64,000 nt of DNA, taken from an uncultured Clostridia bacterium. Its GTDB lineage: Bacteria > Bacillota > Clostridia > Oscillospirales > Ruminococcaceae. The DNA lies in NCBI GenBank assembly GCA_944386045.1, contig CALWZO010000019.1, positions 1 through 64,000 of the forward strand. The letters run 5' to 3'. Of the stretch, positions 5,400-12,739 are shown piece after piece (the stretch's first letter is position 1; each line of letters opens with the position of its first letter). The notes beneath the pieces are model-generated. The model was not told the DNA's origin, did no database searches, and saw only the letters and a program-made list of their open reading frames with translations. The translations under genes and the position numbers were made by a program.

Positions 5400-5432
5400 T
5401 AAAATATAAGGTACGGAAAGGAAGTGAAATTT

Positions 5433-6533
5433 ATGAATTTTGAAAAAAAGGATTTTTATGATATAAATGACCTGTTGAATATAGTGGATATGCTGAGGGA
5501 CAAGGAACACGGCTGTGACTGGGACAAAGAGCAGACCCACCAAAGCATCAGACAGAATTTTATTGAAGAGACTTACGAAGCGGTGGACGCCATAGACAAA
5601 AACGACAAAGAGCTGCTGCAGGAGGAGTTGGGCGATGTATTGCTGCAAGTTTTGCTTCATGCCCAGTTTGAAAAAGAGGAGGGCAGTTTTGACTTTGACC
5701 GGGTGGTCAACGGCCTGGCGCAAAAACTGGTCCTGCGTCACCCCCATGTGTTCAAAAGCGAAAAGCTGAAAGGCACACAGGAAATATTGAACAAATGGGA
5801 AGAGATTAAAAATGCTTCCCACGGCCATAATACCGTTAGCCGGACACTCAATGCAGTTCCCGCCGCTTTTCCGGCGCTGATGTACGCGCAGAAAATACAA
5901 AAAAGAATACAGGCCGGAAAACTTCCGGTTCCGGGACGCCGGCAGGAAATTGACAGAATGATAGAAGTTCTTCAAAAGATGAAACAAATACCGGAAAACC
6001 GGCCTCTCAGCCGGGATGACCTGGCAAAGCTGATGTTTGGTGCGGTGAATATCACCAGGCAGAACAGCATGGATGCAGAGGAAGTTTTGTCCTTGTACAG
6101 CCGTCAGATAGTGCAAATATTTAATGTTTTTGAAAATTTGGCATTGCAAAACGGTATTGTATTTGATAAAATAGAACCTGTTAAGTTTGAAAAACTATGG
6201 CAACAAGCACAAGAGCTTGAAAAAAAAAAGAATAGTATAATTTATCGGAGGATAAAAATGACAAAGACAGAATTGACAGCTATTGTCAGCGAAAAAGCAC
6301 AGATTACAAAAAAGGATGCAGAAAAAGCTGTATCAGCAGTTATAGATGCAATAACATCTGCACTGGCAGAAGGTGACAAAGTAAGCCTGGTTGGTTTTGG
6401 CACTTTTGAAGTAAAAGAAAGAGCTGAAAGAATGGGTCACAATCCTCAGACAGGCGAGGCAATGACAATCCCCGCCAGCAAGGCTCCTGTTTTCAAAGCA
6501 GGCACAGCTTTGAAAAATGCTGTAAACAAATAA
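5433..6533 (+). CDS. mazG: MazG NTP pyrophosphohydrolase, frame continuous with HU
   Basis: The first ~265 residues are a MazG nucleoside triphosphate pyrophosphohydrolase with two MazG repeats (GCDWDKEQTHQS, EETYEAVDAID and EELGDVLLQVLLHAQ in the first). MazG cleaves NTPs to NMP plus PPi in house-cleaning. A stop is expected after WQQAQELEKK, but none occurs: the frame passes a run of ten A residues (6220-6229), reads through the hup ribosome binding site and continues to the end of HU, giving a 366-residue open frame. One A more or fewer would stop translation at 6233-6235 or 6238-6240. The GTG at 5424 overlaps AAGGAAG, so ATG 5433 is the likely start. See findings. Confidence 0.85.
   Translation: MNFEKKDFYDINDLLNIVDMLRDKEHGCDWDKEQTHQSIRQNFIEETYEAVDAIDKNDKELLQEELGDVLLQVLLHAQFEKEEGSFDFDRVVNGLAQKLVLRHPHVFKSEKLKGTQEILNKWEEIKNASHGHNTVSRTLNAVPAAFPALMYAQKIQKRIQAGKLPVPGRRQEIDRMIEVLQKMKQIPENRPLSRDDLAKLMFGAVNITRQNSMDAEEVLSLYSRQIVQIFNVFENLALQNGIVFDKIEPVKFEKLWQQAQELEKKKNSIIYRRIKMTKTELTAIVSEKAQITKKDAEKAVSAVIDAITSALAEGDKVSLVGFGTFEVKERAERMGHNPQTGEAMTIPASKAPVFKAGTALKNAVNK
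6258..6533 (+). CDS. hup: DNA-binding protein HU
   Basis: 91-residue HU/IHF-family nucleoid protein, a homodimer that bends DNA without sequence preference. The HU body is plain: MTKTELTAIVSEKA, VSLVGFGTFEV, then the beta-arm with RMGHNPQTGE and IPASKAPVFKAG. It has its own strong signal, CGGAGGATAAAA, directly before ATG 6258, so it is probably made as a free protein although the mazG frame runs through it. The position between mazG and rqcP is common in Clostridia. The strong hairpin just after the stop suggests a short abundant transcript ends here. Confidence 0.96.
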   Translation: MTKTELTAIVSEKAQITKKDAEKAVSAVIDAITSALAEGDKVSLVGFGTFEVKERAERMGHNPQTGEAMTIPASKAPVFKAGTALKNAVNK

Positions 6534-10862: not shown

Positions 10863-11594
10863 ATGAAAGAGAATAAATACGACAACGATATATTTTTTGA
10901 AAAATACAGCCAGATGAGCCGTTCAAAGGAAGGACTGTCCGGGGCAGGAGAATGGAAAGAATTCCAAAAGCTGTTTCCGGATTTTTACGGCAAAAGTGTA
11001 CTTGACCTGGGCTGCGGCTATGGCTGGCACTGTAAATATGCTGCGGACAGGGGTGCGTTGAAGGTTCTTGGCACGGACATATCAGAAAAAATGCTGTCTG
11101 TTGCAAAGAAAAAGAATTTTGCGCCCAATATACAATACCGTCTGTGCGCCATGGAAGACCTGGACTTTGACGGCGGGAGTTTTGATGTTGTAATCAGTTC
11201 GCTGGCTTTTCACTATGTGGAAAATTTTGACCGTCTGGTGAAAAATATACACCGCTGGCTGAAGACAGGCGGTTTGCTGGTGTTTTCTGTGGAGCACCCG
11301 GTATTTACCAGCAGCGGATCTCAGGACTGGTTTTATGACAAGGACGGCAACATAATGCATTTTCCGGTGGATAACTATTATTATGAAGGCCGCCGTGAAG
11401 CCGTTTTCCTTGGGGAAAAGGTGATAAAATATCACAGAACGCTGACCGGCTACCTGGAGCTGTTGTTACAGACCGGTTTTGAAATATGTCATGTGGTGGA
11501 GCCACGGCCGCCGCGGGAGATGATGGATATACCCGGTATGGCTGATGAAATGCGCCGCCCGATGATGCTGTTGGTGTCCGCAAAAAAGAAATAA
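10863..11594 (+). CDS. Class I SAM-dependent methyltransferase
   Basis: 243-residue Rossmann methyltransferase of the Methyltransf_11/UbiE-like type. Motif I is VLDLGCGYGWHC, followed by the acidic strand end GTDISEKML, AMEDLDF, FDVVISSLAFHYVENF and LKTGGLLVFSVEHP. The substrate is unknown; small molecules are common for this subfamily. The ATG follows TGGGAGATAGAGA; that GGGAG lies in one arm of a 7-base inverted repeat CCCATGT/ACATGGG at 10818-10854. Confidence 0.85.
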   Translation: MKENKYDNDIFFEKYSQMSRSKEGLSGAGEWKEFQKLFPDFYGKSVLDLGCGYGWHCKYAADRGALKVLGTDISEKMLSVAKKKNFAPNIQYRLCAMEDLDFDGGSFDVVISSLAFHYVENFDRLVKNIHRWLKTGGLLVFSVEHPVFTSSGSQDWFYDKDGNIMHFPVDNYYYEGRREAVFLGEKVIKYHRTLTGYLELLLQTGFEICHVVEPRPPREMMDIPGMADEMRRPMMLLVSAKKK

Positions 11595-11598
11595 TCAA

Positions 11599-11627
11599 AC
11601 AGGGCAGATATTATCTGCCCTGTTTTA
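11599..11627 (+). terminator. Terminator after the methyltransferase
   Basis: 12-base inverted repeat ACAGGGCAGATA/TATCTGCCCTGT followed by TTTTAAT. Confidence 0.9.
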
Positions 11628-11678
11628 ATAAAATTTATCATATATTTTTAACTGCCAGTACTTGAAAGGAGCATGACA

Positions 11679-12635
11679 ATGGAATCAGATATTTTGCGCA
11701 TACATAAATCTTGCCTTGATTTTTTGCTGGAATGCCAGGCGGAAAATGACGAATTTTTCTTTGTACCAAGAAAGAGCAACAAGAACAAAAGACTGGAAAA
11801 AGGTATGTATTTTCTCGGAAATGAGTCCTATCTGGTGTTGTCATTTTGGGACAGTGCAGATTATCGGGAGCGAATATACAATATCAACTGGGCGTGCAGA
11901 AGCAACGGAGAGTCATATATCGAACTGTCAAGTAAGAGCGATGATGAAAAATTCCGCTATCTGTGCGAAATAAAAGATATGCTGGAAAACCCGGAGAGAA
12001 AATTCAGTCCGGTAAGAAAAAACAAGTGGATATATACCTACCCAAAAGAAGAACATTTTTTAAATACGCTGAAAGATTTTGTCACCAAAGATAAACCCAT
12101 GATAGACAGCTATCTGAAACGGCACCCGGAAAGCGGTATTCCGCTTGCGGACAGAAGTACCAATGATAAATATGTAAAAAAACTGCCATGTTATACACGG
12201 ATTATGGAAAAGGTGCGTGCAGATAAAAAGACCGGGTCTGTCATGGTTAGACCGTCAGAATATATGATGACATTCCGGCATAACGAATTGTCAAATGCTC
12301 TAGTGAAATACCTGGATACCCACGGATACAGAAATATCAAGACTGAAGATAATTATGTCGATATAAAATGTAATGATAAATCCGGGCAAAATATATTTTT
12401 TGAGCTGAAAACGGGCATGACCGTAAAATCTGCCATAAGAAATGCAATAGGGCAGTTGCTGGAATACAACCATTACCCTGATACAGATAAAGCGGAGAAT
12501 CTGATTATAGTCACAGGGTTGGAACCGGAGGAAGATGATGTAAAGTATCTGAATAAACTTAGGAAAATTTATAAGTTACCTATTTATTATCAGTATTTTG
12601 ATATGGAGAAAAAAGAACTTTCAAAGAAATTCTAA
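11679..12635 (+). CDS. Orphan protein with a C-terminal PD-(D/E)XK nuclease-like domain
   Basis: 318-residue protein I cannot name. The C-terminal third (from residue ~210) carries a restriction-endonuclease-like core: Asp228 in YVDIKC, Glu242-Leu-Lys244 in FELKTG, then AIRNAIGQLLEYNHY with Gln259, the D...ExK...Q layout of PD-(D/E)XK nucleases. The N-terminal ~200 residues hold two charged alpha/beta segments and no motif I recognise. No methyltransferase, helicase or other defence gene is adjacent. ATG 11673 is 2 bases from AAAGGAG, so ATG 11679 is the likely start. Codon use is somewhat A+T-richer than its neighbours. Confidence 0.7.
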   Translation: MESDILRIHKSCLDFLLECQAENDEFFFVPRKSNKNKRLEKGMYFLGNESYLVLSFWDSADYRERIYNINWACRSNGESYIELSSKSDDEKFRYLCEIKDMLENPERKFSPVRKNKWIYTYPKEEHFLNTLKDFVTKDKPMIDSYLKRHPESGIPLADRSTNDKYVKKLPCYTRIMEKVRADKKTGSVMVRPSEYMMTFRHNELSNALVKYLDTHGYRNIKTEDNYVDIKCNDKSGQNIFFELKTGMTVKSAIRNAIGQLLEYNHYPDTDKAENLIIVTGLEPEEDDVKYLNKLRKIYKLPIYYQYFDMEKKELSKKF

Positions 12636-12711
12636 TAGATATATAGTCGTCAGTGAGTACAGAAAAATCCAGCATTTATCGAATTTTTGTTTTTATTGTT
12701 ATTAAAAATAT

Positions 12712-12739
12712 ACCGCCGGTTAAAATGCCGGCGGTTTTT
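12712..12739 (+). terminator. Terminator after the nuclease-like gene
   Basis: Stem ACCGCCGG/CCGGCGGT with an 8-base loop, followed by five T residues. Confidence 0.9.

Follow-up and report, generated by a model that had tools for sequence, protein, structure and literature searches.

A solo PD-(D/E)XK nuclease with a Septu PtuA1-type N-terminal domain: a candidate one-gene defence system in a Clostridia genome

Introduction

What is the role of a nuclease-like gene that stands by itself, with no gene next to it that would modify or unwind DNA? The stretch of DNA analysed here (64,000 nucleotides, hereafter the window) contains such a gene, encoding a protein of 318 residues. The original prediction, made from the letters alone, described a credible PD-(D/E)XK core joined to a domain of about 200 residues that it did not recognize, and proposed a solo defence nuclease or a modification-dependent one. 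Our own reading, to which we give a probability of about one half, is that this one gene defends the cell against phages by itself: its product would be a nuclease with a DNA-reading N-terminal domain, probably of a type IV-like kind.

An acquired gene in a host site

The gene, its domains and its site are listed in Table 1. The start at ATG 11679 is preferred over ATG 11673 because of the position of the AAGGAG ribosome-binding site. In the resulting 318-aa translation, D228, E242-x-K244, Q259 and the IGQLLEY stretch were all found at the positions named earlier. The upstream neighbour (10863-11594) is a class I enzyme of the Methyltransf_11 type, a small-molecule kind according to Pfam and NCBIfam, and the downstream neighbour is an XRE regulator; as had been predicted, neither a DNA methyltransferase nor a helicase adjoins the nuclease gene.

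Table 1. Positions of the nuclease gene, its protein domains and residues, and its insertion site in the window
Feature	Position	Strand	Basis
Nuclease gene, 318 aa, two-domain protein (stop included)	11679..12635	+	ORF list and sequence; full-length relatives
Ribosome-binding site AAGGAG, 7 nt 5' of ATG 11679	11666..11671	+	sequence
Terminator-like hairpin of upstream host gene, left insertion edge	11597..11625	.	sequence and sister comparison
Terminator-like hairpin of host site, right of insertion	12712..12735	.	sequence and sister comparison
Acquired segment, 1,064 bp, missing from sister genome G015	11626..12689	.	alignment to L128; GC 36.6% vs 45.6% for the window
N-terminal domain, residues 1-185, Septu PtuA1-type; predicted MotA-CTD-like fold at 1-141	11679..12233	+	PADLOC, profile and VIA matches
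Flexible linker, residues 186-195	12234..12263	+	low pLDDT, 188-192 under 50
C-terminal PD-(D/E)XK nuclease domain, residues 196-318	12264..12632	+	AF2 model; VIA structure matches
H201, kept in 74/75	12279..12281	+	alignment A6
Catalytic D228, identical in 75/75	12360..12362	+	alignment A6
Catalytic E242-x-K244, identical in 75/75	12402..12410	+	alignment A6
R254, Q259, Y263 (IRxAxGQLLEY helix), identical in 75/75	12438..12467	+	alignment A6

Comparison with a sister genome, in which the proC protein is 97% identical and the flanks share 87-89% DNA identity, revealed an empty site. The gap runs from the terminator of the methyltransferase gene to the stretch before the XRE gene, and the alignment resumes at 12690. 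GC3 of the nuclease gene was 42%, compared with values of 49-55% for four other genes, and neither an integrase nor clear terminal repeats were found with the 1,064-bp insert. In single-sequence searches the gene occurred in 1 of 16 genomes of the genus, 1 of 297 of the family and 1 of 391 of the class, each time the window's own. The nuclease gene is thus accessory and recently acquired, and not a core gene uniformly conserved in its clade. The empty site also settles the standing of the surrounding features: the two terminators and the XRE gene are present as described, but because the sister genome has them without the nuclease gene, they are features of the host site, which rules out the hairpins as parts of the nuclease system and the XRE gene as its partner or antitoxin.

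Two side observations concern the same pair of genomes. In the sister genome, the methyltransferase gene that precedes the empty site is broken into two frames, with pieces 88-92% identical. Elsewhere in the window, MazG and HU lie in one open frame (5424-6533). HU, however, follows an A-rich run and comes with a ribosome-binding site of its own, and in the sister genome MazG and HU occupy different frames, so that the apparent fusion is probably a homopolymer effect.

Full-length relatives and their neighbourhoods

Full-length relatives were found at seven other distinct loci, with 44-62% identity to the window protein: L014-L019, from Lachnospiraceae or Clostridiales, and one phage lineage (L088-L090). 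In the prophage L088 the nuclease gene lies between the lysis cassette and the integrase, in the order holin, amidase, nuclease, 152-aa ORF and large serine recombinase. The Tn916-type element L014 carries a C5 methyltransferase and a HATPase gene, then, after further genes, the nuclease gene and a 152-aa ORF, and farther on a Tn916-type integrase. The remaining settings are varied: the recombination genes YqaJ and RecT and a resolvase precede the nuclease gene in L015, a helicase-like gene and a resolvase accompany it in L018, SLFN/AlbA_2 is nearby in L017, AbiH is adjacent in L019, where a type I R fragment and ParA are also close by, and L016 has no clear defence neighbour. Across the eight loci no neighbour is conserved, apart from the 152-aa ORF, which two of them share, and resolvase-type genes, which recur in pairs, which agrees with the proposal that the gene works without a partner.

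The 152-aa protein is encoded directly 3' of the nuclease gene at its two loci (L014:6388-6846 and L088:6401-6859); the copies are 72% identical, and that of L014 has no Pfam match. An IQPDF...GEIFAH stretch appears nuclease-like by eye. The protein is not encoded in the window, and its presence at 2 of 8 loci rules it out as an obligate partner.

These neighbourhoods bear on two further explanations. The gene could be an orphan type II restriction endonuclease, with its methyltransferase elsewhere or lost. RE_TdeIII is the one Pfam family to match the window protein (E 0.0022 over residues 218-312, short of the cut-off), and 6 of 75 family members match it as well; however, no methyltransferase neighbour, DNA methyltransferases included, is conserved across the eight loci, and the C5 methyltransferase gene of L014 lies several genes upstream and at that locus alone, so that we consider this origin very improbable. 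In that element, the genes for the C5 cytosine methyltransferase, for a receiver-like protein and for a protein in which the HATPase domain occurs twice look like one operon (L014:387-4799). This operon precedes the nuclease homologue and is possibly a separate defence system. Slightest of all, in our estimation, is the chance that the gene is decaying cargo with no present function: it is an isolated single copy in one genome, but its frame is intact, its ribosome-binding site is good, and all catalytic residues have been retained at the level of divergence given above.

The C-terminal nuclease domain

Sequence searches with the whole protein returned little. No match was found in NCBIfam or PHROGs, the PDB yielded no meaningful relative by sequence, and no relative was recovered from phage records, nor from genome or viral contigs by way of query-derived peptides. 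Neither Pfam nor NCBIfam has a name for either domain, and none of the libraries names the nuclease family. Because these whole-protein searches failed, an alignment of five C-terminal domains (A2) was needed, and through it the family was found at 74 confirmed loci in genome contigs and 7 in viral contigs; seven plasmid records matched by tblastn in the C-terminal domain only. The final alignment (A6) comprises 75 proteins, with short, edge-cut or duplicate rows omitted (L041, L052, L060, L068, L074, L087, L089, L090 and L093), and with L032 kept and L058, L072, L081 and L084 dropped at the alignment step.

Within this alignment the catalytic residues of the predicted core are invariant, far beyond chance. 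The pattern used to search the genome contigs spans residues 252-261, so that the invariance of R254 and Q259 is partly selected, while D228, E242, K244, Y263 and H201 fall outside it. An AlphaFold2 model built from a 67-row alignment (A5) had a mean pLDDT of 90.5, with values mostly of 94-98 in the C-terminal domain, and a pTM of 0.60, which leaves the arrangement of the two domains unsure. The C-terminal domain is modelled as a helix (192-214), three strands (218-224, 227-232 and 238-243), a helix (249-265), a strand (274-279), a helix (285-298) and a final strand (302-308), and contains the alpha-beta-beta-beta-alpha-beta order of PD-(D/E)XK enzymes, with D228 on the second strand and E242 on the third. 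This is a nuclease fold, as had been proposed, and not a non-nuclease fold with displaced Asp, Glu and Lys.

Among the best VIA matches of the model were AF1548 (1y88; Z 10.3, rmsd 2.4, 102 residues), XisH (2okf; Z 10.0, rmsd 3.1, 115 residues), LmuA (9hr5; Z 8.9, rmsd 3.1, 121 residues) and McrC (6hz4; Z 8.8, rmsd 3.0, 110 residues). Foldseek by itself was weak, with a best E of 2.2e-3 and, in the viral library, of 2.1e-4. Shedu (SduA/DUF4263) was neither among the Pfam families of the 75 members nor among the VIA matches, an absence that excludes nothing. On its invariant residues and modelled fold, the identification of the C-terminal half as a PD-(D/E)XK nuclease holds, and from these we infer cleavage itself. 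The best-scoring solved structures come from restriction and defence proteins that are nucleases or resemble nucleases, and this likeness of the model lends support to a defence nuclease.

The presence of XisH among the top folds, together with archaeal Hjc at Z 7.1, and the occurrence of homologues in prophages and integrative elements, could indicate instead an XisH- or resolvase-like nuclease that serves mobile elements in recombination or repair and has no part in defence. We regard this as improbable: the window copy is solitary and lacks an integrase, its N-terminal domain is one found in defence ATPases, and some family members adjoin AbiH, TIR or restriction genes, as counted without a matched control.

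The N-terminal domain and Septu

The N-terminal region proved to be a separate domain, as the original prediction had it, but not an unrecognized one. In PADLOC, residues 4-187 of the window protein match positions 3-181 of the profile for PtuA1, the Septu ATPase (E 3.1e-22), with the AAA part unmatched. At E values up to 10, PADLOC gave the window protein no model other than PtuA1, and the PD-T4-1 model did not match. The relationship was also found in the other direction: a profile of the domain made from the orthologues finds PtuA ATPases (L098, E 2.9e-24; L097, E 9.4e-14). Their operons, in two Bacteroidales-order genomes (L117 and L116), have the order HsdM-HsdM-HsdS-PtuA-HNH-HsdR, with gene names read from the translations except for the AAA domains. 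A widened profile (A8) gave 8 matches in 6 genomes among 393 of the order that includes the Alistipes genome of L028 (G693), one of them a broken copy (L150). Twelve diverse N-terminal domains keep L16, F28, R31, L39, F45, G47, F56, W57, D61, K139, I142 and D143.

The domain occurs in several architectures. Four proteins (L097, L098, L147 and L148) combine it with a Walker A motif at about residues 217-225 and have an HNH-type gene adjoining. In E. coli Septu PtuA the Walker A lysine is K43, according to the available text of PMC13096335, and because of this difference in position the PtuA proteins described here carry an added N-terminal module, which E. coli PtuA lacks. In L114 (538-6447), a protein of 1,969 aa joins a helicase-like half, the N-terminal domain and a PtuA-type ATPase, again with an HNH-type gene adjoining; L149 (4159-9894) resembles this kind of giant (about 1,900-1,970 residues), and a re-scan of its called ORF gave no match to the domain. 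In L108 the domain is followed by a 'GxGHEEW' domain and a nuclease of the present family. Searched by tblastn against plasmids, the window's domain gave one chance match (E 7) and those of L108 and L098 none; the L098 domain gave one chance match in phages (E 2). The window protein itself has no Walker A motif (G-x4-GK[ST]) and no Pfam match to SRA, EVE or PUA, and no PtuB HNH gene lies beside its gene. The open-licence literature, as far as its text was available, yielded no description of the N-terminal domain or of the nuclease family.

Canonical PtuA-PtuB acts by tRNA cleavage and is an abortive-type system, as stated in the available text of PMC13096335; the N-terminal domain could for this reason sense something other than DNA. 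Since that domain is shared with Septu, abortive infection is the main rival to our reading. The N-terminal domain would sense either a phage protein or some by-product that infection leaves in the cell; host and phage nucleic acid would then be cut by the nuclease regardless of modification, and the cell killed or stalled. The nuclease fold also lies near LmuA and the effectors Card1, Can2, Cdn1 and Cap4 among the VIA matches. However, the system has neither an ATPase nor a regulatory partner, and elsewhere in the family the same kind of nuclease is joined to domains that read DNA, EVE among them. We therefore hold an abortive-infection effector to be possible but unlikely.

A possible double-wing fold

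The double wing at the C-terminus of T4 MotA binds glucosyl-hydroxymethylated DNA, and its motif is reportedly specific for modified DNA. In the model built from orthologues only (mean pLDDT 70.8), the top two of 998 chains matched by the N-terminal domain were two independent structures of this MotA domain, 5jlt_D (Z 5.9, rmsd 3.5, 105 of 106 residues) and 1kaf_D (Z 5.9, rmsd 3.6, 102 of 104 residues); the next row stood at Z 4.3. The better AlphaFold2 model matched 5jlt_D at Z 6.3. Values under 8, such as these of about 6, can reflect a common arrangement, and the fold was read from models of the full protein. Sequence similarity to the MotA domain was not detected: hhalign gave a probability of 1.2% when a single MotA sequence was compared with A8. 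The N-terminal domain is neutral, with an isoelectric point of 6.8, and the MotA domain is so too, at 7.0. The available text of PMC7641849 reports the double-wing fold for YjbR/MmcQ as well and describes fusions of YjbR/MmcQ with EVE and with nucleases. Taken together, the matches of the models are suggestive of a MotA-CTD-like double-wing fold.

A bolder proposal is that the domain is a new class of modified-DNA reader built on the MotA double wing and used both in solo PD-(D/E)XK nucleases and in a branch of Septu. We find this doubtful. If it were true, the Septu branch that carries the domain would be a direct sensor of hypermodified phage DNA, and a fold with which phages read their own modified DNA would, in bacteria, have become a detector of that DNA.

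A nuclease family with exchangeable N-terminal domains

The 75 family members differ in their N-terminal parts: 8 are of the window type, 20 of the L003 type, 5 of the PD-T4-1 type, and 19 carry the 'GxGHEEW' domain by motif, with L108 in addition, alongside others. PADLOC matched PtuA1 in 9 members, PD-T4-1 in 5, LmuA in 2 (weakly) and UzuA in 1, and Pfam matched PDDEXK_9 in 5 and EVE in 4. In the three proteins scanned singly (L083, L085 and L086) it is the N-terminal part that matches PD-T4-1. A table in the available text of PMC10952713 gives PD-T4-1 a PD(D/E)XK prediction, and its name as a whole word is absent from the available text of PMC9519451. In Marinomonas and Acinetobacter, domains of this type also stand at the start of AAA ATPases whose genes immediately precede one annotated as McrC (L136:3968-6328 and L137:4001-6538), which suggests an undescribed McrB specificity domain; Salmonella proteins with such a domain are annotated as DUF3883. 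Two independent captures of the window-type N-terminal domain, one in the window clade and one in L108, which groups with the GHEEW-type nucleases at 95/93 support, appeared likely at first; a single clade survives the AU test, however (p 0.224), which leaves two captures a possibility.

The 'RICWN...PSG...GxGHEEWLFD' domain, which has no Pfam match, heads many of the nucleases (L021, L027, L048 and L108) as well as an annotated HNH endonuclease in Vibrio gigantis (L151:2998-4026), and is a candidate DNA-modification reader. Among 140 immediate neighbours of the family, PADLOC found type I methyltransferase models in 3-4 proteins and specificity models in 2, as raw counts with no control set.

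Because these N-terminal domains also serve ATPase-based defence and restriction systems, the nuclease can be viewed as an effector module placed on interchangeable N-terminal domains. The 75 sampled members, from many phyla, represent an unnamed family of nuclease effectors whose exchangeable N-terminal domains are common to Septu, McrBC-like and PD-T4-1 proteins.

Proposed mode of action

In the defence reading that we prefer, the Septu PtuA1-type sensor module (about residues 1-185) would bind DNA that invades the cell and that most likely carries modified bases, and would place the C-terminal domain on this DNA in the manner of a type IV restriction enzyme. D228, E242 and K244 would then carry out metal-dependent phosphodiester cleavage, probably as a dimer. 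A protein that protects itself without a methyltransferase must either recognize marks that are absent from the host or require infection to become active. Two things speak for the first option: relatives carry EVE and McrB-type N-terminal domains, and the fold predicted for the window protein's own N-terminal domain resembles that of MotA; no methyltransferase would be needed since, as we propose, host DNA lacks the recognized mark. The roles in phage defence and in dependence on modified DNA are put forward on the basis of architecture, genomic context and resemblance of fold.

As a single protein of 318 residues, the window protein makes the question of what the Septu branch senses testable without the ATPase machinery. 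If the N-terminal domain does read modified DNA, that domain would also be a candidate reagent for modified bases.

Comparison with known systems

The window protein shares its N-terminal domain with PtuA1-type Septu; however, Septu is a pair of an ATPase and an HNH protein, whereas here a single PD-(D/E)XK domain takes their place, with no ATPase, Walker A motif or HNH partner. It resembles the EVE-PD(D/E)XK fusions, described as putative type IV enzymes in the available text of PMC7641849, in being one polypeptide with a nuclease, an N-terminal reader (here a putative one) and no methyltransferase, and EVE itself is carried by some of its relatives. The window protein, by contrast, carries no recognized modification-reader family and approaches the MotA C-terminal domain by fold only, in a predicted likeness that spans that whole domain. 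PD-T4-1, a single-gene defence of E. coli against T4, is connected to the family through the five relatives that match its model, unlike the window protein. Lamassu LmuA and the Cap4-type nucleases have the same PD-(D/E)XK fold, which in the LmuA match extends over 121 residues, and two relatives match LmuA weakly; in contrast to these systems, the window protein has its nuclease at the C-terminus and no Lamassu or SAVED partner. The architecture is a variant of single-gene sensor-nuclease defence, the principle of which is not new.
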